Part shown: positions 3,424-20,649 of the stretch, in pieces | Layout: the number at the start of each line of letters is the position of its first letter | How positions within the stretch are numbered: position 1 is the stretch's first letter | Source: a virus | Strand: one strand, 5' to 3' | Virus record (IMG/VR): IMGVR_UViG_3300025872_004046 | Location: 1-20,948 of that record | DNA length: 20,948 nt | Translations under genes and position numbers: made by a program | Notes under the pieces: model-generated | Databases searched by the model: none | What the model was told of the DNA's origin: nothing | Seen by the model: the letters and a program-made list of their open reading frames with translations, nothing else

Positions 3424-4017
3424 ATGGATACCAGTATCATCATTACAGAAAATTTCTACAATAATCCCCATGAAGTGCGTCAACATGCACTGAATCAAGA
3501 ATATAAAGTTCGAGGAAATTATCCTGGACTACGAACCATTTCATTCTTGAATGATTCCATCAAAAATACTATTAATGGCATCATTTCACCCCACGCCGGT
3601 AATGTCACCTGGTGGGGCGGTGATGGACCTGATAATTACACGGGATGTTATCAGCTCACCACGGCAGCAGACAGAACTTGGATTCATGCCGACCACACCA
3701 CGAAGTGGGCAGGGGTGTTATACTTGACTCCGGGTGCCCCACATACCGGCGGTACAGGATTGTTCCGTCACAAGAAAACTGGATGGTTCAAACAACCTGT
3801 GTTACCTAATGGTAAAACTGACACCGAGGCGGAATCGAAAATTTCCAACGAGTTTCAAGATTATACCAAATGGGATTTGTTTGATGTTGTGGGAAATCGT
3901 TTCAATCGGTTAGTGATGTATCGCGGTGATTATTATCATGCATCTTTAGATTACTTTGGAAAAGATTTACAAGATGGTAGATTGTTCCAGGTATTTTTCT
4001 TCAACACTGAGCGGTAA
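3424..4017 (+). CDS. DUF6445-like 2-oxoglutarate/Fe(II) oxygenase fold protein
   Basis: 197 residues. The pattern matches the DUF6445 family: an N-terminal NFYNNPHEVRQHAL, then WIHAD with the metal-binding pair H88 and D90, TTKWAGVLYLTP, a distal histidine at 172 in DYYHAS and R186 near the end. These are the HxD...H facial triad and the 2-oxoglutarate-binding arginine of the cupin-type dioxygenases. Substrate is unknown; members occur next to halogenases and in marine phages. Start ATG 3424 has GAGGAG eight bases upstream. It lies between the zinc-finger gene and the purine gene in one apparent unit. Hydroxylation of a small molecule or protein is the likeliest activity, from fold only. Confidence 0.75.
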   Translation: MDTSIIITENFYNNPHEVRQHALNQEYKVRGNYPGLRTISFLNDSIKNTINGIISPHAGNVTWWGGDGPDNYTGCYQLTTAADRTWIHADHTTKWAGVLYLTPGAPHTGGTGLFRHKKTGWFKQPVLPNGKTDTEAESKISNEFQDYTKWDLFDVVGNRFNRLVMYRGDYYHASLDYFGKDLQDGRLFQVFFFNTER

Positions 4018-4023
4018 TATTTT

Positions 4024-5046
4024 ATGATTCGTCATGCAGACATTGTTGTGGATTTACAGGCCGGTGACACCGGCAAGGGTAAGGTGTCACATTGGCTTGC
4101 CAAGAATTTCAAATATGATGCCGTACTACGATATAACGGTGGTGCCAATGCCGGTCACACCATATATCATAATGGACAAAAGGTGGTGACACATCAGGTG
4201 CCTGTGGGTGTGTTTTATGGCATCCCAAGCATCATTGGGTTGGGGTGTGTTGTGAATCTCCCAAAACTTCGTGATGAAATTGATATGTTAAAGAATCTTG
4301 GGTTTCAGGCTCCCATCATGATTGATGGAAGATGCCATGTCACCACAGAAGAACATATCAAGGAAGATAGTGATGACACAAAGATTGGTACCACCCGTCA
4401 AGGCATTGGTCCCACTTACCGAGACAAGTATGCCAGAACAGGCACACGCATCGCCAACTTTTTGAAATATAACAGTTGGGATATCCCGTATGACATGATT
4501 GATACCTATAGATATTTTCATGGTGACAATCGTGAAATGAACATACTATGCGAAGGTGCACAAGGATTTCAAATTGACATTGATTGGGGCGATTATCCCT
4601 ATGTTACTAGCTCACATTGCACCTCAGGTGCTGTGGCATTGAATGGTGTTCCACCTCGAAGCTGGAGAAGTGTGTATGGTGTTATGAAGGCGTATGAAAC
4701 CTATTCAGGATTCAAAACCCATTTCACAGATGATTCTCCTATATTTGAAAAGATACAAGAAGTGGGTCAAGAATTTGGTGCCACAACTGGAAGAAAGCGT
4801 CAGGTCCGTTGGTTACATCTTGACGGAGTAATTCAAGCTATGTATATTAATGATGTGACACATCTTATTATTAACAAGATAGATGTGTTAGAGCAAGTAG
4901 GAAAGTACGGTGTAGTGTTCAATGGAACTCGAACAATGCTTGATACAGCTTCACAATTCAAGGGCTTTGTTGAGGATACCATTCGTTGGCATTATCGTAG
5001 TGATTTGCATAGTATAACATGGTCATCAACACCGGAGGGTGTATGA
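4024..5046 (+). CDS. purA: Adenylosuccinate synthetase family (PurA/PurZ-like)
   Basis: PurA enzymes join aspartate to IMP using GTP, on the way to AMP; phage PurZ does the same to dGMP to make diaminopurine. Motifs in order: GDTGKGK (14-20), GGANAGHT with catalytic H45, GTTRQGIGPTYRDKYA (122-137), EGAQGFQIDIDWGDYPYVTS (177-196), ATTGRKRQ (253-260) and NKIDVL (284-289), the guanine-recognition segment. At 340 residues it is far shorter than E. coli PurA (about 430) and matches the compact archaeal/phage form. The usual GDE is GDT: the catalytic aspartate (D15) is kept, but the next residue is threonine as in PurZ. The ATG follows the oxygenase gene by six bases, and its stop overlaps the kinase gene (ATGA). 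The enzyme family is certain; whether it acts on IMP or dGMP is not. Confidence 0.92.
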   Translation: MIRHADIVVDLQAGDTGKGKVSHWLAKNFKYDAVLRYNGGANAGHTIYHNGQKVVTHQVPVGVFYGIPSIIGLGCVVNLPKLRDEIDMLKNLGFQAPIMIDGRCHVTTEEHIKEDSDDTKIGTTRQGIGPTYRDKYARTGTRIANFLKYNSWDIPYDMIDTYRYFHGDNREMNILCEGAQGFQIDIDWGDYPYVTSSHCTSGAVALNGVPPRSWRSVYGVMKAYETYSGFKTHFTDDSPIFEKIQEVGQEFGATTGRKRQVRWLHLDGVIQAMYINDVTHLIINKIDVLEQVGKYGVVFNGTRTMLDTASQFKGFVEDTIRWHYRSDLHSITWSSTPEGV

Positions 5047-7063: not shown

Positions 7064-7621
7064 GTGGATATTTCAGCACCATCTGAAAAATCTATCGGAG
7101 TATTTTTGTCAGGAGGTATGGATAGTGCATTGCTTCTATACCTTCTGGCGCAACGCTCTGATAAAATAAAAATTTTTACAATACCAAAGTATGATGGCGC
7201 AGAACTCTACGTTGGTCCAATAGTATCTTGGATAAACAAAAGACTGGGATGTAACTTACCTGACCCCATCATTATTGGTGACCCCAACGCCAATCATGAA
7301 CTTCAGGTCAACACAGGGTTGTATAAAGTATACCATACCTGTGATATTTTTTATTTTGCTGGAAATTCATATCCCGAAGATATATTACCCAATGGACCTA
7401 ACAGAACCAGAAGAAAAAATCCAAAAGAGAAACAACCTTTTTTTGATTTATATAAAACAGACATTGTAAAGATGTATGTTGAACATGATTTAATGGATTT
7501 GTTGACATTGACTCATACCTGCACCGAGCAATCTTTAGGACGATGTAATAATTGTTGGCAATGTCGTGAAAGACAATGGGCATTTAAAGAATGTGGTATA
7601 GAGGACTTGACAAATACGTAG
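7064..7621 (+). CDS. QueC-like PP-loop ATP pyrophosphatase
   Basis: 185 residues. FLSGGMDSA (14-22) is the PP-loop (SGGxDS) that binds ATP in QueC, asparagine synthetase and related enzymes. Near the end, C153, C161, C164 and C167 (in HTC...CNNCWQCRERQ) give a C-x7-C-x2-C-x2-C pattern, nearly that of the zinc site in QueC, which makes preQ0 for tRNA queuosine and for phage deazaguanine DNA. The middle is shorter and different from QueC (about 230 residues). GTG at 7064 is the only good start, two bases after the preceding stop. No other queuosine-pathway gene (FolE, QueD, QueE) or DNA-insertion enzyme is in this window, so the substrate is open. Confidence 0.72.
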   Translation: MDISAPSEKSIGVFLSGGMDSALLLYLLAQRSDKIKIFTIPKYDGAELYVGPIVSWINKRLGCNLPDPIIIGDPNANHELQVNTGLYKVYHTCDIFYFAGNSYPEDILPNGPNRTRRKNPKEKQPFFDLYKTDIVKMYVEHDLMDLLTLTHTCTEQSLGRCNNCWQCRERQWAFKECGIEDLTNT

Positions 7622-7660: not shown

Positions 7661-8578
7661 ATGCCACATCAAGTTGGATACTGCTGTATCAATCTCACAT
7701 TAGGCAAAGACAAGATTTCCACTGGAAGGACGCTACGCCAGGCTTCATTTAAGGAAGACACGAAGCTGGAGCGTACGTCCTTGCTTGCCTTGCAGAATGC
7801 CACAGATTTGGTAAAGATACTAAAGTGGAATGTGGACAATAACATCAAGGTGTTTCGTATTGGTAGCAACATCTTCCCTTGGAATTCAGAATATGAAGTG
7901 ACACAGCTACCCGATTATTTCACTATCGCGGAATACTTACATCTAGCTGGGCAAATCATCAAACAATCAGGACAGCGTGTAAGTTTTCATCCTGACCATT
8001 TCGTGAAACTGGCATCTAGTAAGCCTGATGTGGTACGCCGTAGCTTACACGATTTGAATCATCATAATTTGCTATTCGACATGATGAATCTTCCTGCTAC
8101 ATATCATTATCCATTAAACATTCATGTGGGTATGAATTATTCTGAGGAAATTACTGAAAAATTCTGTGAGCAATTCAACAACTTGAATCATAGCACACGG
8201 TGTCGTTTGGTGGTCGAGAATGATGACAAGGCCAATGCCTATTCAGTGAAAAAGTTGTATAAGCACATATATTCAAAAATCGGAACGCCTATCACGTTTG
8301 ATTATTTTCATCATACCTTCAATGATGATGGGTTGACTAGCAAAGAAGCTGCCCACCTTGCCGCAGAAACTTGGCATGAATACAAGCCATTGTTTCATTA
8401 CAGTGAAAGCAAAAATTTAAATGAGAATGTGCAAGGCAATCCACGAGCACATTCCGATTATGCTCTGTTAACATTAGATGATTACGGACTAAATATTGAC
8501 GTTGATTTGGAAACGAAAGCGAAGGAACTGGCCTGGACACTATACGAGAGGAATAGACATGACAAAATGGTATCGTAA
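7661..8578 (+). CDS. uvsE: UV DNA damage endonuclease (UvsE/UVDE family)
   Basis: 305 residues with the UVDE barrel pattern: GYCCINLTL near the start, LVKILKWNVDNNIKVFRIGS, RVSFHPDHFVKLASS, PLNIHVG, RLVVENDDK and TFDYFHH. The histidines, glutamate and aspartates in these blocks are the metal ligands of the family. The enzyme nicks DNA 5' to UV photoproducts and other lesions to begin repair. Length is normal for bacterial UvsE. ATG 7661 has GAGGTG upstream and lies directly behind the promoter at 7607. The final 20 bases overlap the PspC-like gene. A phage in sunlit water would benefit from such repair, but that is inference. Confidence 0.93.
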   Translation: MPHQVGYCCINLTLGKDKISTGRTLRQASFKEDTKLERTSLLALQNATDLVKILKWNVDNNIKVFRIGSNIFPWNSEYEVTQLPDYFTIAEYLHLAGQIIKQSGQRVSFHPDHFVKLASSKPDVVRRSLHDLNHHNLLFDMMNLPATYHYPLNIHVGMNYSEEITEKFCEQFNNLNHSTRCRLVVENDDKANAYSVKKLYKHIYSKIGTPITFDYFHHTFNDDGLTSKEAAHLAAETWHEYKPLFHYSESKNLNENVQGNPRAHSDYALLTLDDYGLNIDVDLETKAKELAWTLYERNRHDKMVS

Positions 8579-8816
8579 TTCCAAGAAGGGAAAGTTGGGC
8601 GGAGTTTGCGCAGGATTAAGTGAGATGTGGAATGTAGATGTGACCTTGATACGGTTTGCATGGTTTCTGATGATTTGGATACCTGTGCCTGCTGTGATTG
8701 GATATGTTATAGCATGGTTCATTGTACCAGACAAGGAGGAGATCCATGCTGACAACATTAGCACTCGTACTACAACTACAAGCTCCGCTGGTAGTAAAGA
8801 ATTTCTTGCCGGGTAA
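8559..8816 (+). CDS. PspC-domain membrane protein
   Basis: 85 residues. The PspC domain is clear: KGKLGGVCAGLSEMW, DVTLIRFAWFL, then a membrane segment (about 32-57) ending AWFIVPDKEE. Bacterial PspC responds to inner-membrane stress together with PspA and PspB. The start ATG 8559 has GAGAGGAA upstream; an in-frame ATG at 8496 lies within the UvsE gene and is rejected. The gene overlaps UvsE at its start and the endolysin gene (by 71 bases) at its end. Its position beside the lysis gene suggests that it may help manage membrane stress during infection. Confidence 0.85.
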   Translation: MTKWYRNSKKGKLGGVCAGLSEMWNVDVTLIRFAWFLMIWIPVPAVIGYVIAWFIVPDKEEIHADNISTRTTTTSSAGSKEFLAG

Positions 8817-9279
8817 AACACTCAGAGACACAACAAGAAATTACATTGTAATACACAATGATGGCGCCAGTTTAAGTGCCACGGCAACTCGCGCCATCTT
8901 GAAACGAAGAAGATTGTCCTATCATTATTTCATTTCTCGAACAGGAGAAATACATCAATGGAAAGATTTGACACAGAAGGCGTTACACGCAGGAGTTTCG
9001 AAATGGAATGGAATAAGCGATTGGAATACTTTCAGTATCGGTGTATGCTTACAAGGGACAAGCTTTTTACCTTACACGGAAAAGCAATATCAAGCCTTGA
9101 AAATATTAGTGAACTATATTAACTTTAGATATCCGGATAGCAAAGACAAACCAATTCTGGGTCATTCAGATGTTGCCTATCCGAAAACACGAAAGAAAGA
9201 CCCAGGTGAACATTTTCAGTTATGGAGAATATACAATGACATTACCTACGACACCAGCCGACAAGTTAAAGCTCCTTGA
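8746..9279 (+). CDS. N-acetylmuramoyl-L-alanine amidase (AmpD-type endolysin)
   Basis: 177 residues of the amidase_2 family, which cuts the bond between muramic acid and the peptide in peptidoglycan. Motifs: NYIVIHNDGAS with H37, LSYHYFISRTGEIHQW, ALHAGVS, FSIGVCLQG, ILGHSDVAYP with H140, and KKDPGEHF with D152. H37, H140 and D152 are the zinc ligands. The first 20 residues (LTTLALVLQLQAPLVV) are hydrophobic but have no early basic residues, so a signal-anchor is possible, not proven. ATG 8746 follows AAGGAGGAG, so the upstream in-frame start at 8722 is rejected. It overlaps PspC by 71 bases and the DsbA-like gene by 44. Confidence 0.88.
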   Translation: MLTTLALVLQLQAPLVVKNFLPGKTLRDTTRNYIVIHNDGASLSATATRAILKRRRLSYHYFISRTGEIHQWKDLTQKALHAGVSKWNGISDWNTFSIGVCLQGTSFLPYTEKQYQALKILVNYINFRYPDSKDKPILGHSDVAYPKTRKKDPGEHFQLWRIYNDITYDTSRQVKAP

Positions 9280-9494: not shown

Positions 9495-10082
9495 ATGCCT
9501 AGACATTTTGTTTTTCCTAAAAATCATTCGGATTCACAAAACTATTATTATTTTTCTGATGGTATTTCTACTGATGAATTGAAGAGGTTGTTTAATGATG
9601 TGGCTTTGATACCTGAACATCGTGCCACAACGGTTGCTTCTGATGATTCAGCAATCCGGTCATCTATTGTAAAATGGATACCACAGAATGACCAATGGTC
9701 TTGGTTATATGACAAGATGATTAACATGGCCACTATTGCCAACAATGCTTTGTGGAATTTTGATTTACAAACTGCACCTGAGCAAATTCAATTCACCGAA
9801 TATCATGCTTCGCAGGGCGGACATTATGGTTGGCATCAAGATATTGGACCTGGAATGCTTTCTCTCCGAAAGGTTTCCATCACGGTTCAATTGTCTGGTC
9901 CCGAAGATTATCAAGGCGGGGATTTACAAATTTGGCAGGGCGGAGATAATCCAATTGATGCCCCTAAAGGAAAGGGAACTGTAGTTATTTTCCCTTCATA
10001 TATGATGCATCGTGTAACTAAGGTAACATCAGGCGTTCGTCGTTCATTAGTACTTTGGGTAGGTGGAGAACATTACAGGTAA
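9495..10082 (+). CDS. PKHD-type 2-oxoglutarate/Fe(II) dioxygenase
   Basis: 195 residues. The HxD...H...R triad is clear: H114 and D116 in YGWHQDIGPG, H172 in SYMMHRV, and R182 in GVRRSLVLWVGG. TEYHASQGGHY precedes the triad as in prolyl-4-hydroxylase and PKHD-type proteins, and GGDLQIW plus VVIFPSYM complete the double-stranded beta helix. It likely hydroxylates a protein or nucleotide substrate, which is unknown. Such oxygenases are common accessory genes in T4-like aquatic phages. It lies directly downstream of the DsbA-like gene and four bases before the GMP reductase gene. This is the second oxygenase in the window and belongs to a different family from the one at 3424. Confidence 0.88.
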   Translation: MPRHFVFPKNHSDSQNYYYFSDGISTDELKRLFNDVALIPEHRATTVASDDSAIRSSIVKWIPQNDQWSWLYDKMINMATIANNALWNFDLQTAPEQIQFTEYHASQGGHYGWHQDIGPGMLSLRKVSITVQLSGPEDYQGGDLQIWQGGDNPIDAPKGKGTVVIFPSYMMHRVTKVTSGVRRSLVLWVGGEHYR

Positions 10083-10086
10083 TATT

Positions 10087-11103
10087 ATGAGAAAACTTGA
10101 TTTTGATGATGTATTAATTGTTCCTCAGTTTTCAGATATAACTTCACGCAGCCAAGTTGAAGTTGAAACTACCATTAAAGGTAAATGGGGTGCTGCTATC
10201 AAAGGCGTACCTATCATTGCAGCCAATATGGATGGTGTTGGAACCTTTAGTATGCATCATGCTTTAAAACGGTTTGGGGCATTTACTGCCATCACAAAAC
10301 ATCATACCATAGCAGATTGGACCACACAAAAAGATGTAAGCCATGCTTTCATCACTATTGGTATGAATAATGATGAATTATACCATGCCGCAGATGTTTC
10401 TGACATCTGGAAAGATAGAATTCATAATTACACACCAAAAATTGTCATTGATGTGGCAAATGGTTACATGAATGCCTTCTATGATTTCATTAAGCGTGTT
10501 CGTGACGAGATACCTGATGCCTTCATCATGGCCGGAACAGTGGTAACCCCTGAAGCTGTTGAAAGAACCATCTTGTCGGGTGCTGATTTAGCTCGGGTAG
10601 GTATTGGAACTGGTGCGGTTTGTACAACTCGGCGGGTTGCAGGCGTTGGTTATCCTCAATTCTCTGCACTTCAAGAGTGTGTTCCTGCTGCAAAGGCAGT
10701 TGGCGGCGGTGTTCAAAGTGATGGAGGATGTGTTTTTCCTGGAGATTTTTCAAAAGCATTGGCTGCTGGTGCAGAAATGGTGATGGCAGGTAGTATTTTT
10801 GCCGGTCATGATGAGTCGGAACAGGAAATTCGTCATGGAAAGGTCACTTTTTATGGCATGAGTAGTCATGCAGCACAACAAAAGCACAATCAAGTAAAGA
10901 AATATCGTGCTTCCGAAGGAAGAGTTGTGGAAATTCCATACAAGGGCTTGGTGGAGCACACAATTTCTGACATTTTAGGAGGTATTCGTTCAACTTGTGC
11001 CTATGTAAATGCCCTAAATATCTCGGAACTGCCTGAAAAAGCACGTTTCATTGAAGTAAATAACCAACTTAACCGCTCACTAGAGCAATATACCATCCGA
11101 TGA
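10087..11103 (+). CDS. guaC: GMP reductase (IMPDH/GMPR family)
   Basis: GMP reductase converts GMP to IMP and ammonia with NADPH. The 338 residues match the family length (E. coli GuaC 347) and lack the CBS domains of IMP dehydrogenase. Motifs: FDDVLIVPQ at the front, IIAANMDGVGT, VVIDVANGYMNAF-like strand, MAGTVVTPEA, GIGTGAVCTTR with the catalytic C179, GVGYPQFSA, SDGGCVFPGD, FYGMSSHAA and YRASEGRVVEIPYKG, then GGIRSTCAYVN. The CTTR and GMSS blocks point to GMP reductase. ATG 10087 is chosen over GTG 10063, which lies in the oxygenase gene. Its product IMP is the substrate of the PurA-like enzyme at 4024. The stop overlaps the next small gene as TGATG. Confidence 0.9.
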   Translation: MRKLDFDDVLIVPQFSDITSRSQVEVETTIKGKWGAAIKGVPIIAANMDGVGTFSMHHALKRFGAFTAITKHHTIADWTTQKDVSHAFITIGMNNDELYHAADVSDIWKDRIHNYTPKIVIDVANGYMNAFYDFIKRVRDEIPDAFIMAGTVVTPEAVERTILSGADLARVGIGTGAVCTTRRVAGVGYPQFSALQECVPAAKAVGGGVQSDGGCVFPGDFSKALAAGAEMVMAGSIFAGHDESEQEIRHGKVTFYGMSSHAAQQKHNQVKKYRASEGRVVEIPYKGLVEHTISDILGGIRSTCAYVNALNISELPEKARFIEVNNQLNRSLEQYTIR

Positions 11104-11213
11104 TGAAAATTATTGATAAAATTGTGGATGTAATTTTTCAATTATTGGTAAAATACCGCCAAAAAAGAAAAATTGCGGAGTTGAAAAAGCGTGACCCCTT
11201 CATTTATCGTTGA
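11103..11213 (+). CDS. Small phage protein ending in RDPFIYR
   Basis: 36 residues: an amphipathic front (MKIIDKIVDVIFQLLVKY), a basic middle (RQKRKIAELKK) and the end RDPFIYR. I recall small T4-like phage proteins with a similar basic helix and a DPFIY tail, function unknown. The ATG overlaps the GMP reductase stop, and the end overlaps the next gene by 23 bases. A short membrane-associated helix is likely from its shape. Confidence 0.65.
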   Translation: MKIIDKIVDVIFQLLVKYRQKRKIAELKKRDPFIYR

Positions 11214-11808
11214 TATACCTAGTGATAAGGTAATTTCTTGGATGAATGTTGTCCGAGAACACACAGGTAAGCAACAAAAAAGAATTTTAGAAAATTTTTG
11301 GGAAAGTCAATTAAAAAGTAAGGCCTGGGCCATCAATTGTTTGAAAGAACATAACGTTGATGGTCCGGGCGATGCTTATATTTTTGGTGGATGGTATGGA
11401 ATATTGGCATCTTTGTTAAAAGATAAGTTTTTCTTCAATGAAATTTACAGCATTGACCTAGACCCTGAGTGTAAAATCATTGGACCAAAGTTTGATGATA
11501 GGATAAAATTCATAACCAGAGATATGAAACAATTTTTCTTTGATACAAAAAGAAAAATAAGTTTAATTGTAAATACTAGCACTGAACACGTTAGCCAAAA
11601 TACATTTGATACATGGTTATCACATATGCCTTCACAAACCCCCATCTTGTTACAAGGAAATAATTTTTTTGACTGTGGTGAGCATGTAAGGTGTTCAAAT
11701 AATCTAGATGATTTCAAAAAACAAAATCATTTAGATGTAGTATTATTTGAAGGTGAATTAGAATGTGGTAACTTCACAAGATTTATGACTTTAGGATATA
11801 AAATATAA
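11191..11808 (+). CDS. Probable class I SAM-dependent methyltransferase-like protein
   Basis: 205 residues. DAYIFGGWYGILASLL (61-76) has the glycine-rich loop position of motif I, and IYSIDLDPE (85-93) ends strand 2 with an acidic residue that would hold the SAM ribose. A following RDMKQFF and ISLIVNTSTEHVS fit motifs III and IV. The motif I sequence is atypical (GGWYG), so activity needs proof. GTG at 11191 is the first start; GGAG is 11 bases upstream, inside the small gene. It opens the AT-rich operon whose members all overlap. The acceptor is unknown; sugar or protein methylation would fit the neighbours. Confidence 0.62.
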   Translation: MTPSFIVDIPSDKVISWMNVVREHTGKQQKRILENFWESQLKSKAWAINCLKEHNVDGPGDAYIFGGWYGILASLLKDKFFFNEIYSIDLDPECKIIGPKFDDRIKFITRDMKQFFFDTKRKISLIVNTSTEHVSQNTFDTWLSHMPSQTPILLQGNNFFDCGEHVRCSNNLDDFKKQNHLDVVLFEGELECGNFTRFMTLGYKI

Positions 11809-13217
11809 TGAATGTAATAGAAAATTTTCAAAAAACAAAAAGACAACTTGATGTCATTAGTCCATCTTTGTGTGTAGCAAAGTGGAATCAGGTTACTTTA
11901 CATTTAGGAACAGGTACAACCCATAGTTGCCATCATCCTACTGCACATCACATACCATTAGCTGAAATTGAAATCAATCCTTCAGCATTACATAATACCA
12001 ACTTTAAAAAAGAACAAAGAAAGTTGATGTTAGAGGGCAAACGCCCTAACGAATGTGATTATTGTTGGCGAGTTGAAGATACTACCAGGTTAAAAAATGA
12101 ATCTGATGTGTTTAGTGACCGCATCACTAAAAGTTCTGAGTCTTGGGCTCAATCACACATACAAAAAATAGCATCTCTTCCTTGGAATACTAATATCAAT
12201 CCTACATATCTTGAAGTGGACTTTGATACTACGTGTAATTTCAAGTGTGCTTATTGTTCGCCATCATATTCAACCACATGGATGCAGGAAATTAAGCAAC
12301 ACGGTGCTTATAATTTGCCATCAATTATTTTCAATAGTGTTGAAGGGTTGAAAAAGGGCACTGGTTTACCAATATTACAGAGTGAAGAAAATCCTTATGT
12401 TGATGCATTTTGGAAATGGTGGCCTGATGCTGTAAAAGATTTGCATGTGTTTAGAATAACCGGTGGGGAACCTCTATTAAGTAAAAATACTTTTAAAGTT
12501 CTTGATTATATAATTGAGAACCCTCAGCCACAGATGGAATTTAACATTAATTCAAATCTCGGCATCCCCAAAGAAGTTCTTGATAAGTTTATTGAGAAAA
12601 TTTCAATTATTCAGGACATGAAAGCAGTAAAGGAGTTTAAACTCTTTACGAGTAATGAAGCCCATGGTAAAAAGGCTGATTATATTCGATTTGGTATGAA
12701 GTATGATTATTGGAAAGAAAATGTACACAGAATTTTACGTGAAGTTTCAAATAGTAAAGTAACTTTGATGTGCACGTATAATGCTCTTTCTGTAACCTCC
12801 TTTACAGATTTCTTAAAGGATATGCTAGAAATCAAATTAGAATATGCTGATAGACACACAAGAATTCTTCCTTTAAGTGTAGATGTTCCTTACTTACGAC
12901 ATCCGGGATTTTTAGCTCCATGGATTCTTACAGAAAACTTTTTGCCACACATTGAAAATAGCGTGACGTTTATGTATAGAAATGCCGAAACGCCTAAATG
13001 GGTGCCATTAGCTGCAAAGGGATTTTTTGATTATGAAATTCATAGAATGGAAAGATTGTATTATGTTGTAAGAGATAGCATGGGAAATACAGACTCAAAT
13101 TTACGAGAAAGAAAAAACTTTGCAGCATTTATAGAAGAATATGATAAACGTAGAGGAATGTCATTTGTTGAAGTTTTTCCGGAACTTAAAGATTTTTACC
13201 ATTATTGTAAAATATAA
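11808..13217 (+). CDS. Twitch-domain radical SAM protein
   Basis: 469 residues. The radical SAM cluster motif CxxxCxxC is C143, C147 and C150 in CNFKCAYC, with ITGGEPLLSK (the GGEP SAM-binding motif) downstream. The N-terminal region has HSCHHPTAHH and NECDYCWRVED (C83, C86), like the partial SPASM or twitch region that binds an additional cluster in this phage- and marine-type family. Such enzymes make 5'-deoxyadenosyl radicals to modify peptides or sugars; the reaction here is unknown. Start ATG 11808 overlaps the preceding stop as TAATG, and its own stop overlaps the next gene the same way. No small precursor peptide was found beside it other than the 36-residue protein upstream. Confidence 0.85.
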   Translation: MNVIENFQKTKRQLDVISPSLCVAKWNQVTLHLGTGTTHSCHHPTAHHIPLAEIEINPSALHNTNFKKEQRKLMLEGKRPNECDYCWRVEDTTRLKNESDVFSDRITKSSESWAQSHIQKIASLPWNTNINPTYLEVDFDTTCNFKCAYCSPSYSTTWMQEIKQHGAYNLPSIIFNSVEGLKKGTGLPILQSEENPYVDAFWKWWPDAVKDLHVFRITGGEPLLSKNTFKVLDYIIENPQPQMEFNINSNLGIPKEVLDKFIEKISIIQDMKAVKEFKLFTSNEAHGKKADYIRFGMKYDYWKENVHRILREVSNSKVTLMCTYNALSVTSFTDFLKDMLEIKLEYADRHTRILPLSVDVPYLRHPGFLAPWILTENFLPHIENSVTFMYRNAETPKWVPLAAKGFFDYEIHRMERLYYVVRDSMGNTDSNLRERKNFAAFIEEYDKRRGMSFVEVFPELKDFYHYCKI

Positions 13218-14509
13218 TGTCTGATATTATTTGTGTTGTAGAATCATGGGATTCTATTTTAGATTACTGGAAACCGAACTGTTCATCTTCGAGTTGGTAT
13301 GTAAAAGAATTGGGACAGCTTATGACCCCCTTTCCGCTTTTTACAGGAACGGTGCTTAATTGGTTTTCCAATCAACACAATAAAGAATTGATTACTCCGA
13401 CATTTCCTAAGGTACGATATGTAAAGTATGATGAATTAAGCGACACACAACGGTATCTTTATTTGATTCCGGTGCATGACGGTGCATTTTTTCAAAAAAA
13501 TGATAAGGTTGGATTTTCTGTAATACCATTAAAAATATTAGATGATATTAGATTAAAAAAAGCAGCTATGGTTTTTTATTTTCCATATGAAGGTTTTAGT
13601 GGGTGTGAACATGCAACAAATCAGACCGATTTGCTTCTTATTCAAAAGTGGTGTGAAACAGCTAATATAGCACCTGAAAGTATATACTTCATTCACGGCA
13701 ATCTAAAAATAGAACAAATTAAAGAAAAACAAAATGTTAGGATAAACACCATTCCTATCTCTTTGTTTGAATTATGGAATAATATATTTGCAATACAAAA
13801 AGAAATACCTAATTATGTGGGAGATAAGATTTTTTTGTGCTATAATAGAGCACCTCGTCTACATAGAGCAATTTTTTGTTGTGAATTAATAAAAAATGAT
13901 TTACTAGACAAAGGTATTGTCAGTTTTAATACCAATAAACAATGGACACCTGAGTTGTGGAGACCTTATATTCCACAATATGATGTAACACTTATGGATG
14001 CTTACAATAAATTAAGAGAATATGGGTCTATATACACAGATATAGAAACTACAGATAATTTGGCGATGAATATTAACGTTTCTCATTATGAAAATACATT
14101 TATTTCTGTAGTAAGCGAAACCCTTGTTTGTGACGATATACTATTTCTCAGCGAAAAAATTTGGAAACCCATTATTGTTGGTCACCCATTTATAGTGATA
14201 GGAAATCCTGGCACATTAAAATATTTGAAATCTTTAGGGTTTCAAACATTTGATAAATGGATTGATGAATCCTATGATGATATTATAGATATCAAAAAAA
14301 GGTATTCAATAATATTAAACGAACTTAATAAATTTTCTAATATGTCAAAGAGTCAACTATTGGATATCAGAAATGAAATGCGTGAGGTTTGTTTCCATAA
14401 TAAAAATCATATGGTGAAATTTGTCAGAGAAAAATATCCCTCATTAAATTCTAATGAGTATGTCACAACACACGTATTAACTCCAATATGGAATAGATTG
14501 TATGAATAG
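13217..14509 (+). CDS. Glycosyltransferase-like conserved phage protein
   Basis: 430 residues. The most conserved part is in the C-terminal half: ENTFISVVSETLVC, then LFLSEKIWKPIIVGHPFIV, GNPGTLKYLKSLGF, TFDKWIDESYDDI. This S-E-K-x-x-K-P pattern is the type seen at the donor site of GT-B enzymes such as fucosyltransferase-like families, where the acidic residue contacts the nucleotide sugar. I recognise it as a family common in marine T4-like phages, without a proven activity. It has no signal or membrane segment. It sits between the radical SAM and SGNH genes, with a TAATG overlap at the front and an eight-base overlap at the end, so it belongs to the same operon. Confidence 0.55.
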   Translation: MSDIICVVESWDSILDYWKPNCSSSSWYVKELGQLMTPFPLFTGTVLNWFSNQHNKELITPTFPKVRYVKYDELSDTQRYLYLIPVHDGAFFQKNDKVGFSVIPLKILDDIRLKKAAMVFYFPYEGFSGCEHATNQTDLLLIQKWCETANIAPESIYFIHGNLKIEQIKEKQNVRINTIPISLFELWNNIFAIQKEIPNYVGDKIFLCYNRAPRLHRAIFCCELIKNDLLDKGIVSFNTNKQWTPELWRPYIPQYDVTLMDAYNKLREYGSIYTDIETTDNLAMNINVSHYENTFISVVSETLVCDDILFLSEKIWKPIIVGHPFIVIGNPGTLKYLKSLGFQTFDKWIDESYDDIIDIKKRYSIILNELNKFSNMSKSQLLDIRNEMREVCFHNKNHMVKFVREKYPSLNSNEYVTTHVLTPIWNRLYE

Positions 14510-15317
14510 ACTTTTTACATTTGGATGTAGCTTTTCTGGCTGGGCTTGGCCAACATGGGCAGATATTTTATGCTTTGATGCAAACAAAAAAAATTTTTCG
14601 ATTGTAGAAAATTATGGTAGAGCAGGTGCGGGTAATTTATATATTTTTACCCGACTTTGGGAAGCACATGCAAAATACAATTTCAATGAAAACGATATAG
14701 TAATTATTCAATGGACTTCATTTACAAGAGAAGATAGGTATGTAGAAGGACATTGGGTAACACCCGGAAATATCTTTACACAAAACATCTATAACAAAGA
14801 TTTTTTAAATAGATGGTCAGACCCAAAGCATTTCTATTACAGGGATTATTCTTTGATAATAGCTACACAGAATGCATTAAAAAACATTGGATGTAAAACT
14901 ATATTCCTGTCTATGACACCAATTTCTCAGGCAGACAGCAACGATGTGAATTTTATGTACGAAGAAACAAAAGATATTGAAGCTTTATTTGCACCACAAA
15001 TAAAGCTTGATTGCCCTAGTATGATGGAATATTTAAATTTATTAGACCATTCTCCTATAAAAGCAAAATTAAGATTAAAGACTTTTTGGGGTCATGATAA
15101 AATACCAAATGTAATGCCAGAATGGCATCCTTATCCTGATGAACATTTTAAATATCTGACCAACAATATTATACCTTTATTAGACAATTATACGTTAGAA
15201 GAAGAAACTAAACAATTTGCTAATGAATGGGCTGAAAGAATATATTCTTGGCCTCAACCTATAAATTTAAGTGGTACATTATGGGGAAATGGAATTCCCT
15301 GGAGGAAAATAGGATGA
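14502..15317 (+). CDS. SGNH/GDSL-type hydrolase-like protein
   Basis: 271 residues. FTFGCSFSGWAW at the front has the block I serine (GCSFS, S10 or S12), AGAGN (41-45) is the block II glycine position, IIQWTSFTRE fits block III, and EWHPYPDEHFKYL (207-219) gives the C-terminal acidic residue and histidine, probably E207 or D213 with H209 or H215. SGNH enzymes remove or move acyl groups on sugars and proteins. Phage members without proven activity are frequent near glycosyltransferase-like genes. The ATG overlaps the preceding gene, and the stop overlaps the dehydrogenase ATG (ATGA). Likely cytoplasmic, since no signal peptide is visible. Confidence 0.68.
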   Translation: MNRLFTFGCSFSGWAWPTWADILCFDANKKNFSIVENYGRAGAGNLYIFTRLWEAHAKYNFNENDIVIIQWTSFTREDRYVEGHWVTPGNIFTQNIYNKDFLNRWSDPKHFYYRDYSLIIATQNALKNIGCKTIFLSMTPISQADSNDVNFMYEETKDIEALFAPQIKLDCPSMMEYLNLLDHSPIKAKLRLKTFWGHDKIPNVMPEWHPYPDEHFKYLTNNIIPLLDNYTLEEETKQFANEWAERIYSWPQPINLSGTLWGNGIPWRKIG

Positions 15318-16549
15318 AAGTTGCAATGATTGGGTGTGGTAAATTAGGCGCACCTTGTGCAAATGAAATGTTAAAGGCAGGTCATGATGTTATTGGATAT
15401 GATGTAGTAAAATCTACATTACCTATGTTTCCTCTGGTGAATAGTATTGAAGAGGCTGTAAAGGATAGGAAATTAATTTTTATTGCTGTGCCTACACCCC
15501 ATGATAACTTATATGGAGGCGAAACTCCTACATCTCATCTAGAACCTAAAGATTTTGATTATTCTATTGTTATTGATGTGCTGAAACAATTAAACAAAGT
15601 TTGCACTAAAGACCAACTGATTGTATTAATCAGCACCGTTCTCCCAGGAACAACACGCAGAGAATTTATTCAACATACAAACAATTATCGTTTCATTTAT
15701 AACCCATATTTAATTGCAATGGGGTCTGTGAACTGGGATATGGTAAACCCTGAAATGATTATTATAGGAACGGAAGATGGCTCTGTAACAGGTGATGCGA
15801 AAATTTTAATTGATTTTTATAAAACCATCATGCAAAATGACCCACGATATGAAGTTGGTACATGGGATGAAGCAGAAGGAATTAAAATTTTCTATAACAC
15901 GTTTATTTCAGCCAAAATAGGTCTTGTAAACATGATACAAGATGTTGCCGAAACAAATGGTAATATGAATGTTGACGTTATTACAGGTGCATTAGAAAGA
16001 AGCACACAACGTATCATGGGGCCTTCATATATGAAAGCAGGTATGGGGGATGCAGGGGCGTGTCATCCTCGTGACAATATTGCCCTTCGTTGGTTATCTC
16101 AGAATTTAGATTTGGGATACGATTTGTTTGGCGCAATCATGAATAGTAGAGAACTTCAAGCAAAACGAGTAGCCGATAAACTTATTGAACTATCAAATAA
16201 ACACAATTTACCTATTTTTATTCACGGTAAATCATATAAACCCGGAGTTGAGTACATAGAAGGTAGCTATAGTTTATTAATTGGTTATTATATTGAAAAG
16301 AAAGGGATTTCTGTGACATATATTGACCCCCTCACAGAAAAAGAAACACCCACTGGTATTAAAGGTGTGGTGTTAATGGCACATCACGCTCCTACTACAT
16401 ATAAACATAGTAAACTAATTGGATCCGAAAAACAAAACTTTTATTGTGAGATATTTAAAGGTTCAATTATTTTAGATATTTGGAGATTTATCACCGACAC
16501 AGAAGAAGGAATTTCTTTAATACGTTATGGAGACAGCAGACAAAAATGA
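15314..16549 (+). CDS. UDP-sugar dehydrogenase (UDP-glucose/UDP-ManNAc type)
   Basis: 411 residues. The NAD site GCGKLG (7-12) opens the Rossmann fold and FIAVPTP (56-62) follows; the catalytic cysteine C250 is in GACHPRDN, with K191 and N195 in KIFYNTFIS as the other conserved residues. The enzyme oxidises the sugar alcohol of a UDP-sugar to a carboxylate, giving a uronic acid donor. Two departures are seen: the usual NPE(F) is NPYLIAMG (130-137), so the glutamate is absent, and the PKD after the cysteine is PRD. ATG 15314 has GGAGG eight bases upstream, so the in-frame start at 15248 inside the SGNH gene is rejected. The exact sugar is unknown. Confidence 0.8.
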   Translation: MKVAMIGCGKLGAPCANEMLKAGHDVIGYDVVKSTLPMFPLVNSIEEAVKDRKLIFIAVPTPHDNLYGGETPTSHLEPKDFDYSIVIDVLKQLNKVCTKDQLIVLISTVLPGTTRREFIQHTNNYRFIYNPYLIAMGSVNWDMVNPEMIIIGTEDGSVTGDAKILIDFYKTIMQNDPRYEVGTWDEAEGIKIFYNTFISAKIGLVNMIQDVAETNGNMNVDVITGALERSTQRIMGPSYMKAGMGDAGACHPRDNIALRWLSQNLDLGYDLFGAIMNSRELQAKRVADKLIELSNKHNLPIFIHGKSYKPGVEYIEGSYSLLIGYYIEKKGISVTYIDPLTEKETPTGIKGVVLMAHHAPTTYKHSKLIGSEKQNFYCEIFKGSIILDIWRFITDTEEGISLIRYGDSRQK

Positions 16550-18000
16550 TAATTTGGGGAATATCAGCCAATAGCCATGATGCTGCCATCACAGTGGTGG
16601 GAGATAAAGAAATCTTATTTGCATCACATTCAGAACGTTATTCAGGTGTAAAGAATGATGCACATTTAAATACTGAAATAGTAAATGATGCTAAAAAATA
16701 TGGCGAACCAGATGTCATTGTCTGGTATGAAAAACCTTGGTTAAAATCTTTACGGCAATTTCGCGCAGGACAAGGGTGGGTAAATAACAACATTAGAAAA
16801 TATTTGAATCAATATAATATTTCAACACCTTTTACCACCGTAGGGCATCACAATAGTCATGCAGCTGGAGGATATTACACTTCTCCTTATCAAGAAGCTG
16901 CTGTATTGGTGATAGATGCTATTGGTGAGTTTGATACCACAACAATTTGGCATGGCAAAGGCACAAAACTAGAAAAGAAGTTTTCTCTTGGATATCCACA
17001 TAGTCTAGGATTATGGTATTCTGCCATGACCCAACGTGTGGGGTTTAAACCAAATGAAGAAGAATATATTTTAATGGGTATGGCAGCATATGGTGACCCA
17101 TTAAAATATACTCCAATGATATTGGAAGATTTCTTTGATAGTAAACATATGTTGAAGATGAATCATAATCTTCATCGGGGATGTATGTGGTGGCGTCCTG
17201 AATTATGTTCTGAACAAGACAAGTATGATATTGCTGCCGCTACACAATTCATCTATGAAATGTGTTTTCATGATTTACTAGATGAAGCCAAGAAGTTGAC
17301 AGGAAGCAAGAATCTTGTGTTGGGTGGTGGTTGTGCTTTGAATTGTGTTGCCAACAGTATTGCTTTTCAATATTTTGATAATGTTTGGATTATGCCGAAC
17401 CCAGGAGATGCCGGCAATAGTCTAGGTGCCATTGCCGCATATCAACAAGAATTCTTGAATTGGCGTGGCCCTTATTTAGGGTTGGATATTGGAACAAAAT
17501 ATCCCACCGAACAATTGATTGATACGTTACAAACAGAGCAAATTGCAGGTGTGGCATTTGGTCGTGCCGAATTTGGACCTAGGGCATTAGGTCATAGAAG
17601 TTTATTGGCAGACCCTCGTGGAGATGACATCAAGGACAAAGTAAACGCCATCAAGAAACGTCAAAAGTTCCGTCCGTTTGCTCCTGCCATTCTTGCTGAA
17701 CATGCTCATGAATATTTTCATATGCCAACCACAGAAAGTCCGTATATGCAATACACGGCTTTGTGTAAGCGTCCATTAGAGTTTCCTGCCATTATTCATA
17801 CCGATGGAACATCCCGAGTGCAAACCGTTTCTAGAACGGATTCACCATATTTCTATGAATTTCTTCAAGAATGGTATCGTGAAACAGGATGTCCTATGGT
17901 ACTGAACACCAGTTTGAACATTAAAGGCAAGCCTATGGTGAACAACCAAAAGGACGCAAAAGATTTCTCCAACCACTATTCTGTACCAGTATACACTTGA
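16546..18000 (+). CDS. NodU/CmcH-type carbamoyltransferase
   Basis: 484 residues. The N-terminal domain has GISANSHDAAITVV and TVGHHNSHAAGGYYTSPY with LVIDAIGEFDTTTIW, which hold the metal and carbamoyladenylate in NodU and TobZ. GGCALNC and NPGDAGNSLGA follow, and the C-terminal domain has EFGPRALGHRSLLADPR, KKRQKFRPFAPAIL and PMVLNTSLNIKGKPMV. These enzymes move a carbamoyl group from carbamoyl phosphate to hydroxyl groups, usually on sugars. All key blocks are present, so activity is likely; the acceptor is unknown. ATG 16546 overlaps the preceding stop (ATGA), and its own TGA lies inside the TTGACA of the next promoter. Confidence 0.9.
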   Translation: MIIWGISANSHDAAITVVGDKEILFASHSERYSGVKNDAHLNTEIVNDAKKYGEPDVIVWYEKPWLKSLRQFRAGQGWVNNNIRKYLNQYNISTPFTTVGHHNSHAAGGYYTSPYQEAAVLVIDAIGEFDTTTIWHGKGTKLEKKFSLGYPHSLGLWYSAMTQRVGFKPNEEEYILMGMAAYGDPLKYTPMILEDFFDSKHMLKMNHNLHRGCMWWRPELCSEQDKYDIAAATQFIYEMCFHDLLDEAKKLTGSKNLVLGGGCALNCVANSIAFQYFDNVWIMPNPGDAGNSLGAIAAYQQEFLNWRGPYLGLDIGTKYPTEQLIDTLQTEQIAGVAFGRAEFGPRALGHRSLLADPRGDDIKDKVNAIKKRQKFRPFAPAILAEHAHEYFHMPTTESPYMQYTALCKRPLEFPAIIHTDGTSRVQTVSRTDSPYFYEFLQEWYRETGCPMVLNTSLNIKGKPMVNNQKDAKDFSNHYSVPVYT

Positions 18001-18047: not shown

Positions 18048-19346
18048 ATGAATTCTATTTTTCTTGACTTAGCAAACACAAGCAGTCGTTTGGAAAAAGA
18101 AGCCATTTTAAAGAAGCATCACGCCAATGAAACATTGAAGCGTGTGTTGTTTCTTGCTCTTGACCCATACACACAATTCTATATTCGAAAGATTCCTGTT
18201 TATATCCCAGACACCTCACCGACACATAGAAGCACCATGATGTTGGAGGGTGCCTTGGATAATTTGCAAAAGATTATCAACCGTGATGTCACTGGCAATG
18301 CTGCCATCAATCACCTGAAAATCATTTTGGAAAGTGTGCAGGCAGATGATGCCAAGGTTATCGAACGCATCATTGAAAAGGATTTAAAGTGTGGTGTATC
18401 CGAGGCCACTGTGAACAAGATTTGGCCCAACTTGATTCCCACCTATCCTGTGATGTTGGCATCAGGCTTTGATGAAAAGATTATGAATAAGATGACCTAT
18501 CCTGCTTATGTTCAATTAAAGCTAGATGGGATGCGTTTCAATGCCATTGTGCAAAACGGTAAGGTGGATTTCCGTTCTCGTAATGGCAAGAGTATTGATT
18601 TGCTTGGCAATCTTGAACAAGAATTTCTGGCATTGGCAGGTGAATTGCCTGTGGTGTTTGATGGTGAATTGATTGTTCGAGAAAAGAATGGAGCTATCAT
18701 GAACCGTCAGCAGGGTAATGGCATCTTGAACAAGGCTGTAAAAGGAACTATATCTTCAAGTGAAGCTGCTCAAGTTGAAGCTGTGTTATGGGATATTATT
18801 TTACTGAAGGACTTCAAAGATGGATTTTCCAAGATGCCATATGAAATGCGTTTCCAGATGCTTGAAGAGCTGGAAATGCCATGGCGTGTATCATTGATTG
18901 AAAACATTGAAGTAGCCTCCGAAGATGAAGCACATCATTTGTTTGAGGAATATTTCTCCAAGGGTGAAGAAGGCATCATTCTCAAGGACATCACCAAAGG
19001 CTGGGAAGATAAGCGAGTGAAGCATCAAGTGAAGTTCAAGGGAGAATTGGAGTGTGACTTGCTGTGTGTGGATTGGCAAGAAGGCACAGGTAAGAATGTA
19101 GGTAAGTTGGGTGCCTTGGTGTTGGAATCCTCAGATAAACTGGTGAAAGTGAATGTGGGTTCTGGATTCACTGATGAGCAACGAGATAAATATACAAAGA
19201 AGAATACGGTTGGCAAGATTGTGGCGGTGAAGTATAACGCCAAGATTCAGGATAAAAAGACTGGTGAGTTCAGTTTATTTCTTCCTGTGTTCATTGAACT
19301 TCGTGAGGATAAGGATGTTGCCGATTCTTTATCTTCCATCAAGTAG
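18048..19346 (+). CDS. ATP-dependent DNA ligase (T4 gp30-like)
   Basis: 432 residues; T4 ligase has 487. The nucleophile lysine is K158 in KLDGMR (158-163), close to K159 of T4. The other nucleotidyltransferase motifs are FDGELIV (motif III), EEGIILKD (motif IV) and KHQVKFK (motif V). A DNA-binding segment fills the first 140 residues (RSTMMLEGALDNLQKIINRD and the DLKCGVSEATVNKIWP block), as in T4. It seals nicks using ATP and would serve phage replication and repair. I start at ATG 18048 because GGGAGGA lies four bases upstream; the in-frame ATG at 18027 falls before the predicted transcript start. It is the first gene behind its promoter. Confidence 0.93.
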   Translation: MNSIFLDLANTSSRLEKEAILKKHHANETLKRVLFLALDPYTQFYIRKIPVYIPDTSPTHRSTMMLEGALDNLQKIINRDVTGNAAINHLKIILESVQADDAKVIERIIEKDLKCGVSEATVNKIWPNLIPTYPVMLASGFDEKIMNKMTYPAYVQLKLDGMRFNAIVQNGKVDFRSRNGKSIDLLGNLEQEFLALAGELPVVFDGELIVREKNGAIMNRQQGNGILNKAVKGTISSSEAAQVEAVLWDIILLKDFKDGFSKMPYEMRFQMLEELEMPWRVSLIENIEVASEDEAHHLFEEYFSKGEEGIILKDITKGWEDKRVKHQVKFKGELECDLLCVDWQEGTGKNVGKLGALVLESSDKLVKVNVGSGFTDEQRDKYTKKNTVGKIVAVKYNAKIQDKKTGEFSLFLPVFIELREDKDVADSLSSIK

Positions 19347-19890: not shown

Positions 19891-20649
19891 ATGTCACGCA
19901 AAAAACGTCTGAAATTGGTTACTTCACAAACGTACATTGTCCAAGAGGAACAAGAATCGAAACACAAAATCAAACTCGCAGATTTAAAAGAAATTTATCC
20001 TCTCACACAAAATCAGGAGAATTTTTTCAATTATTATAGAAAAGGAAATACTGCATTGCTTTGTCATGGTGTGGCAGGTACAGGGAAAACATACATTGCC
20101 ATGTATAACGCTTTTAGAGAAATTCTAGAAAATTCCATTTATAAAAAAGTCATCATTGTTCGTTCTGCTGTTCCATCCCGAGATATTGGATTCCTTCCAG
20201 GAAATGAAAAAGAAAAGGTGGAGATTTATTCTCAACCTTATCAAGAAATTTGCACAGACCTATTTCCAAGATTTAGTGAACGGGCCTACAACAAATTAAA
20301 AGAACAAAATCTGGTTCATTTCATGGTAACATCTTATGTTCGAGGATTGACATTAGATAACGCTATTGTTATTGTAGATGAGGCACAAAACATGAACGAC
20401 ATGGAATTAAATAGCATCATGACTCGTATTGGCAAAAATACCAAAGTGATTTTCTGTGGAGATTTCCGTCAAACAGACCTTCAAAAGCGTAATGATATGT
20501 CGGGATTAAAAAAGTTCATGGCAATCGCCAACCATATGCCCTCATTCCGCCATGTTGAGTTCGAAGTGGAAGATATTGTTCGTGGACCATTAGTGAAAGA
20601 ATACATCATTGCACGTTTAGCGTGTGAGGAAATTTTAATAGCATCTTGA
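19891..20649 (+). CDS. phoH: PhoH-like P-loop ATPase
   Basis: 252 residues. Walker A is GVAGTGKT (60-67) and Walker B is AIVIVDEAQN, with VIIVRSAVPSRDIGFLPG and FCGDFRQTDL, the characteristic PhoH blocks. PhoH proteins are ATPases, linked to RNA handling in some bacteria, and are very common in marine phages; they are used as a marker gene. Length fits the phage form, which lacks the extra RNA-binding domain. It follows a terminator, yet no good sigma70-like promoter is seen in the 23 bases before it, so it may depend on readthrough or another promoter class. The stop TGA (20647-20649) lies inside the next -35 box. Confidence 0.94.
   Translation: MSRKKRLKLVTSQTYIVQEEQESKHKIKLADLKEIYPLTQNQENFFNYYRKGNTALLCHGVAGTGKTYIAMYNAFREILENSIYKKVIIVRSAVPSRDIGFLPGNEKEKVEIYSQPYQEICTDLFPRFSERAYNKLKEQNLVHFMVTSYVRGLTLDNAIVIVDEAQNMNDMELNSIMTRIGKNTKVIFCGDFRQTDLQKRNDMSGLKKFMAIANHMPSFRHVEFEVEDIVRGPLVKEYIIARLACEEILIAS

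Follow-up and report, generated by a model that had tools for sequence, protein, structure and literature searches.

Relation to described phage glycan islands

In pelagimyophages, glycosyltransferase and UDP-glucose dehydrogenase genes are found in hypervariable islands, for which modification of the O-chain against coinfection is proposed in the sections of Zaragoza-Solas et al. (2020; PMC7029224) that deal with these genes, and the part of Sullivan et al. (2010; PMC3037559) devoted to comparable genes records a carbamoyltransferase in four cyanophages and, in P-SSM2, lipopolysaccharide (LPS) clusters near phoH. Here we describe a related locus in IMGVR_UViG_3300025872_004046, a linear IMG/VR record of 20,948 bases (the window, by which we mean the record at its full length). 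Seven codirectional open reading frames (ORFs) on the plus strand, at 11103 to 18000, begin with a small peptide ending in the motif DPFIY plus one residue and finish with a carbamoyltransferase (CTase) of the NodU/TobZ/GdmN type.

Like the islands treated in those sections, this one belongs to a T4-like aquatic phage, its conserved core genes enclose a variable block that includes a glycosyltransferase (GT) and a UDP-glucose dehydrogenase, and it lies near a PhoH gene, as does the LPS cluster of P-SSM2. A carbamoyltransferase (in cyanophages) and radical SAM (rSAM) genes (in pelagimyophages) are also on record there. The traits of such islands were confirmed: the contents vary between close relatives, the flanking core is conserved, and a GT occurs together with a nucleotide-sugar enzyme. 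The position is different, since the island of the window is placed between guaC and the ligase and PhoH genes, whereas the host recognition cluster (HRC) of pelagimyophages is described between VrlC and gp14 with tail fibers; no tail-fiber-like ORF was recognized in the window. The island works like a host-recognition island and is not the HRC itself. In the same sections we found no description of cyanomyophage or pelagimyophage islands that start with a DPFIY peptide and end with a CTase. The locus is a version of a known kind of phage glycan island, set apart by its fixed bookends and the DPFIY family.

Among isolated phages, the Pelagibacter phages HTVC008M and Mosig also have a CTase adjoining methyltransferase, UDP-glucose dehydrogenase or MoaA-like genes, but their CTases are only about 27 to 32% identical to that of the window and no DPFIY tail was found nearby. 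Radical SAM genes are also multiplied in a T4-like marine virus whose environmental genome has 12 of them (PMC5332604), but they are discussed there as Fe-S metabolism and not in the context of a glycan island. Searches of the INPHARED phages by tblastn with the rSAM, GT, SGNH and DPFIY proteins returned no useful match.

An island with fixed ends and an exchangeable interior

Comparison with related viral contigs showed the region to be a single allele of an island that is modular and exchangeable, with fixed ends (DPFIY peptide, methyltransferase and rSAM gene first, CTase last) and a swapped interior. The relatives are all metagenomic fragments, so that the absence of a gene from a contig is weak evidence; their genes are mechanical ORF calls, and the contigs are not fully independent. 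Their order is guaC, DPFIY peptide, methyltransferase, rSAM gene, variable genes and CTase, followed by the ligase gene where the right side is present, with an interior of 0 to about 18 genes. The position of guaC is kept in most relatives having the left flank in the data, and the order CTase-ligase, in some cases continued by PhoH and a Cas4-like gene, recurs in many.

The exchange can be followed between the window and one relative, L007. Their left flanks are 96 to 99% identical over most of their length (down to 92% within guaC), identity falls to about 70 to 78% within the rSAM gene past about 12.2 kb and is near 72% from there to the end of that gene, and the two have nothing in common from 13210 to 16546, where the match returns at the first base of the CTase gene. 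In this interval the window codes for the GT, the SGNH-hydrolase-like protein and the dehydrogenase, and L007 for eight other genes, including two DUF6071/GDSL-like proteins, a sugar nucleotidyltransferase and a RuBisCO-large-chain-like protein. The initial annotation had taken the seven genes as a single set, a view at odds with this wholesale replacement between near-identical phages. A scatter of the members in related phages, which that annotation had named as evidence against itself, is thus seen by half: the interior genes are exchanged, while the DPFIY-methyltransferase-rSAM start and the CTase end are kept. What had been a vague "modification operon" thus becomes a defined architecture of fixed ends and a swappable middle.

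The seven genes overlap at every junction, as had been stated (by 23, 1, 1, 8, 4 and 4 nucleotides), and the first also overlaps the guaC stop by 1 nucleotide. Such tight packing is common in this genome, with overlaps between other gene pairs of the window too. The GC profile is uneven, and no other 5.4 kb of the window is as low in GC as 11103 to 16545 (32.6%, against 40.1% upstream and 39.5% downstream; lowest 500 nucleotides within the region, 28%). The AT-rich part consists of the first six ORFs (11103 to 16549, 30 to 35% GC per gene) and stops before the CTase gene, which at 39.2% is at background, so that the earlier description of an AT-rich set fits six of its seven genes. The islands of the relatives are AT-rich as well; low GC is therefore a trait of the locus and not proof that the cassette was recently acquired. 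An origin in host glycan clusters, assessed through the rSAM protein only, found no support for that gene, as its family (N_Twi_rSAM, NF033640) was above cut-off in only 3 of 299 sampled cellular genomes (G063 phylum). The GC values first given were approximate: the ligase gene has 41% rather than 43%, and the first gene of the window 57% rather than 62% (59.6% in its first 500 nucleotides).

Some islands carry large expansions of this uncharacterized twitch radical SAM family, rare in the sampled cellular genomes, with 21, 19 and 13 matches (weak ones included) in, among other virus contigs, G031, G038 and G043, the contigs of L119, L176 and L162. The RuBisCO-like protein of L007 (8948 to 10000 of that contig, 350 residues) is encoded directly before the CTase of this alternative island; it matches PF00016 at 3e-21, its nearest NCBIfam models are those of the RuBisCO large subunit and of type III RuBisCO, and its active-site loop reads KEDE.

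A C-terminal peptide family linked to carbamoyltransferases

The small ORF that opens the island had been listed without comment, and its product proved to be the most informative part of the locus. It ends in KKRDPFIYR, that is, DPFIY and exactly one more residue. A scan of viral contigs for K-R-DPFIY-x-stop gave at least 120 matches; all the matches listed are ORF C-termini, nearly all of ORFs of 33 to 60 residues. Loci scanned without requiring the stop codon showed the same C-terminus on short ORFs, always one residue past the tyrosine. Over all loci collected, 155 distinct ORFs have this ending of DPFIY and one further residue. Conservation covers about the last 16 residues (consensus KKLKELRKRDPFIYK) but not the N-terminus; the tyrosine is invariant, the final residue is variable, and DPFIY is replaced by DPYIY in a few cases and by DEFIY in one. 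The tail also terminates larger proteins, of 138, 250 and 355 residues, the last of them GatZ/KbaZ-like. Neither Pfam nor PHROGs gives the peptide a name (phrog_5432 matches one member weakly), and no description of the family was found in the literature and family libraries searched, which is not proof that there is none.

Cellular genomes contain almost no members of the family. In 257 Gb of such sequence there were 11 pattern matches, of which five are real short ORFs. All five come from metagenome-assembled genomes, and four have CTase matches on the same locus; virus contigs binned into those assemblies are the likely explanation for them.

One DPFIY tail is linked to one CTase per virus contig. 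Among the viral pattern matches listed, a CTase lies no more than four genes downstream in 101 loci. When 30 contigs were selected for homology to genes of the window, the pattern was found in 22, once each in 21, and the reversed pattern, used as a control on the same contigs, gave zero matches. The 28 contigs chosen by the motif have one tail each (an extra pattern match in G058 ends in TGG and not in a stop codon), and 27 of them hold a CTase relative, always downstream of the tail and on the same strand (27 of 27). The gap between the two is at most 16 nucleotides in 14 of these contigs, below 1.1 kb in 20 (the 14 included), and in the others it ranges up to 34 kb; in the lineage of the window, it is the island that sits between peptide and CTase. 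Starting from the CTase instead, 12 of 37 nonredundant loci have a DPFIY-ended ORF that stops within about 60 nucleotides of the CTase start. Dozens of viruses that otherwise differ combine the tail with a CTase, which points to a partnership of peptide and enzyme not described before. DPFIYx at the C-terminus is a sequence tag by which a virus-specific partner of carbamoyltransferase-family proteins can be recognized in many aquatic viruses.

About 20 of the 76 uncut partners are shorter (312 to 340 residues) and consist of the Kae1-like domain without the YrdC-like half. They retain the HHxxHA, GGCALN-type and NPGD motifs and have lost E30, R31 and K36. The existence of these Kae1-only partners suggests that the DPFIY tail acts with the Kae1-like domain. 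Kae1-only relatives were seen in L120, L124, L131, L135, L141 and similar contigs, several of them beside DnaG-like primase and DnaB-like helicase genes, and the two such contigs that were checked also encode a CTase-matching ORF of 606 to 609 residues elsewhere.

The window CTase shares the HHxxHA motif with the NodU/TobZ/GdmN enzymes, as well as both of their domains, the Kae1-like and the YrdC-like. Unlike these, the viral CTases are coupled to a conserved C-terminal peptide and exist in Kae1-only versions; to our knowledge, the known members of the family act on small molecules and have no such peptide. The nearest precedent known to us is HypF, another Kae1/YrdC carbamoyltransferase, which carbamoylates the C-terminal residue of HypE, a cysteine. 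The viral pair may be alike in principle, combining a CTase of this architecture with a conserved C-terminus of defined length, but the DPFIY tail has an invariant tyrosine and a variable last residue, and the likeness is proposed as an analogy.

Genes of the island and its flanks

The enzyme assignments of the initial annotation (Table 1) were borne out by family matches, models and motifs, as was its picture of a low-GC, co-oriented set of genes for modifying a sugar or another acceptor.

Table 1. Genes of the island and of its conserved flanks, with positions in the window
Feature	Position	Strand	Remarks
GMP reductase (guaC)	10087..11103	+	Left neighbor, outside the island; NF003470 368.6 bits, cut-off of 397 not reached
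DPFIY-tail peptide, 36 residues, MKIIDKIVDVIFQLLVKYRQKRKIAELKKRDPFIYR	11103..11213	+	Fixed first island gene
Class I S-adenosylmethionine-dependent methyltransferase-like protein, 205 residues, GTG start	11191..11808	+	AlphaFold2 model, motifs
N-twitch radical SAM protein (rSAM)	11808..13217	+	NF033640 313.3 bits, cut-off 170; CX3CX2C motif
Glycosyltransferase (GT), GT-B fold, 430 residues	13217..14509	+	Exchanged cassette gene; AlphaFold2 model
SGNH-hydrolase-like protein, 271 residues	14502..15317	+	Exchanged cassette gene; motifs
UDP-sugar 6-dehydrogenase family protein	15314..16549	+	Exchanged cassette gene; Pfam, phrog_9148 2e-96
NodU/TobZ/GdmN-type O-carbamoyltransferase (CTase), Kae1-like and YrdC-like domains	16546..18000	+	Fixed last island gene
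ATP-dependent DNA-ligase-like protein (named in the initial annotation)	18048..19346	+	Conserved right neighbor, outside the island
PhoH-like protein	19891..20649		Downstream of the ligase-like gene

The methyltransferase-like protein has no Pfam match. Its AlphaFold2 model (pLDDT 95) matches methyltransferases such as NodS (3ofk), and also MtNAS (3fpg), and the motifs GGWYG, D.D and NTS.EH are present across 28 relatives. A class I fold and a glycine-rich SAM motif are thus found in the same protein, although its activity could be another one, as the best fold match is a nicotianamine synthase. For the GT, Pfam gave a single weak match, to DUF5886 and below cut-off. The model of this protein (pLDDT 81) resembles T4 beta-glucosyltransferase (1j39; Z 12.3, root mean square deviation 5.2, 305 aligned residues), with other close matches to a fucosyltransferase (2nzw) and to the bacterial protein glycosyltransferase GtfA (4pqg). 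A profile search against PDB sequences found no match, and the list used in the fold comparison does not exclude families outside it. The modeled fold is that of a glycosyltransferase and does not tell the acceptor.

The SGNH-like protein, also without a Pfam match, was assigned by its motifs: the serine, glycine, asparagine and histidine blocks are present, and GCS, N and [DE]xHP are invariant or nearly so among 7 relatives. The dehydrogenase is a divergent relative of UDP-glucose/GDP-mannose dehydrogenases, with two of the three Pfam domains, the NAD-binding and the central one, above cut-off (PF03721, 72.5 bits; PF00984, 51.4 bits), the C-terminal UDP-binding domain PF03720 (20.3 bits versus 30) and TIGR03026 (160.8 versus 189.8) below it, and the expected catalytic cysteine in GDAGACHPRD. 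In the CTase, PF02543 and PF16861 are above cut-off, HHNSHA, which holds the HxxxH metal motif, is conserved along with other sites, and the protein aligns with GdmN (7vzq, 5e-52), TobZ (3ven, 1e-39) and the novobiocin carbamoyltransferase. PADLOC gave no defense system and only weak generic matches, between the rSAM protein and pVip (1e-5 over 97 residues) and between a QueC-like ORF and QueC.

Possible function of the island

We consider it probable, with moderate confidence, that this is an exchangeable glycan-decoration island of a T4-like aquatic phage, that its product is a surface glycan, and that the DPFIY tail acts together with the Kae1-like domain of the CTase. The T4-like assignment is supported by gp23 major capsid genes in 7 of 21 relatives. 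The dehydrogenase would supply a UDP-uronic acid donor, the GT-B enzyme would transfer the sugar, the methyltransferase, the rSAM enzyme and the SGNH protein would tailor it, and the CTase would add a carbamoyl cap to a hydroxyl. The product could be placed on host O-chain precursors or on a virion glycan, two options that these data cannot separate, and a cassette swap would change its recognition by receptors, rival phages or defenses. The DPFIY tail may be a docking peptide that brings the CTase to its substrate, or else an acceptor, in both cases via the Kae1-like domain. That phages so nearly identical swap genes rapidly suggests diversifying pressure on the product, for example on a surface glycan, and the soluble-only enzymes of the island are in line with this proposal. 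Judged by hydropathy only, 14 islands showed no multipass membrane protein and hence neither a recognizable flippase nor a polymerase.

Several observations weigh against it. The substrates, acceptor and product of the island are all inferred. Neither an exporter nor an initiating transferase is encoded in the islands, and host machinery would be required for a surface product. Many DPFIY loci lie between DnaG-like primase and DnaB-like helicase genes, where the DPFIY-CTase pair also occurs without a sugar cassette; some DPFIY contigs with replication genes lack any rSAM gene; one 83-kb contig has the tail and no CTase; and the CTases of isolated phages mostly have no DPFIY tail nearby. In addition, with E30, R31 and K36 gone, the Kae1-only forms may not transfer carbamoyl groups.

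More tentatively, we propose that the DPFIY tail is an undescribed, almost exclusively viral family and the dedicated partner of the Kae1-like domain, as acceptor or docking tag, in CTases and Kae1-only proteins alike, in which case these viruses would direct carbamoylation, or some related reaction of Kae1, by a peptide in a way that is not known from cells. Should the tail prove to be the acceptor or the dock, the function of the widespread phage carbamoyltransferases could be tested directly through it.

The enzymes might instead glycosylate and cap a virion or cytoplasmic protein, possibly the invariant tyrosine of the DPFIY peptide itself, and not a polysaccharide of the host surface. This is a possibility of some weight, if a doubtful one: the all-soluble enzyme set suits it as well, the GT model resembles, among others, GtfA, a transferase of serine-rich proteins, and the tail has a fixed C-terminal length in addition to its tyrosine. 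However, the DPFIY-CTase pair also occurs without adjoining GTs, and the acceptor has no direct support.

Modification of the phage DNA, in which a base would receive a group derived from a UDP-sugar and this group would next be methylated or carbamoylated as a protection from restriction, seems unlikely to us. The island is set amid DNA-metabolism genes, its interior is variable, it has no exporter, and T4 beta-glucosyltransferase is among the top structural matches of the GT model; however, GT-B is a common fold, the model matches the fucosyltransferase and GtfA about as well, and a gene of the thymidylate synthase/dCMP hydroxymethylase family was not found in 19 of 21 relative contigs, all of them fragments, which include ones of 124 and 101 kb with gp23.

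A random AT-rich build-up of acquired genes with no joint function, the stuffer DNA that Sullivan et al. (2010; PMC3037559) raise for cyanophage LPS clusters in the section cited above, would account for the highly variable interior, but it is very improbable given that the overlapping frames are intact, the active-site motifs conserved, the end order fixed and the exchange boundaries located exactly at gene ends. Still less credible is a mycofactocin-like ribosomally synthesized and post-translationally modified peptide, in which the DPFIY peptide would be a precursor modified by the twitch rSAM protein, the methyltransferase and the GT: a small ORF with a conserved C-terminus does lie directly ahead of the methyltransferase and rSAM genes in the window lineage, but the tail also terminates proteins of 138 to 355 residues, and the reading was dropped because the constant partner of DPFIY is the CTase and not the rSAM protein, which is missing from 10 of 22 DPFIY contigs, 108-kb and 122-kb ones included.

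Other genes of the window

A phage adenylosuccinate synthetase of 340 residues (4024 to 5046) scores far higher as PurA than as PurZ and keeps the GDTGKGK motif; with the GMP reductase of the left flank, a route from GMP to AMP is possible. The first ORF (3 to 890), ATPase-like by eye with the P-loop GAPGVGKS, has a GC content of 76% at third codon positions in a window of 39% GC overall. An assembly chimera was considered for this GC-rich gene and rejected, as the syntenic contig L263 has a copy that is 77% identical and has 55% GC. The QueC-like ORF (7064 to 7621) has a Pfam match over its C-terminal third and is followed by a UvdE UV endonuclease above the Pfam cut-off (7661 to 8578). Two ORFs (3424 to 4017 and 9495 to 10082) resemble 2-oxoglutarate-Fe(II) oxygenases by eye. 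A PspC-like small membrane protein (8565 to 8816) and then an amidase-like ORF, also named by eye (8749 to 9279), are conserved upstream of guaC in the relatives.

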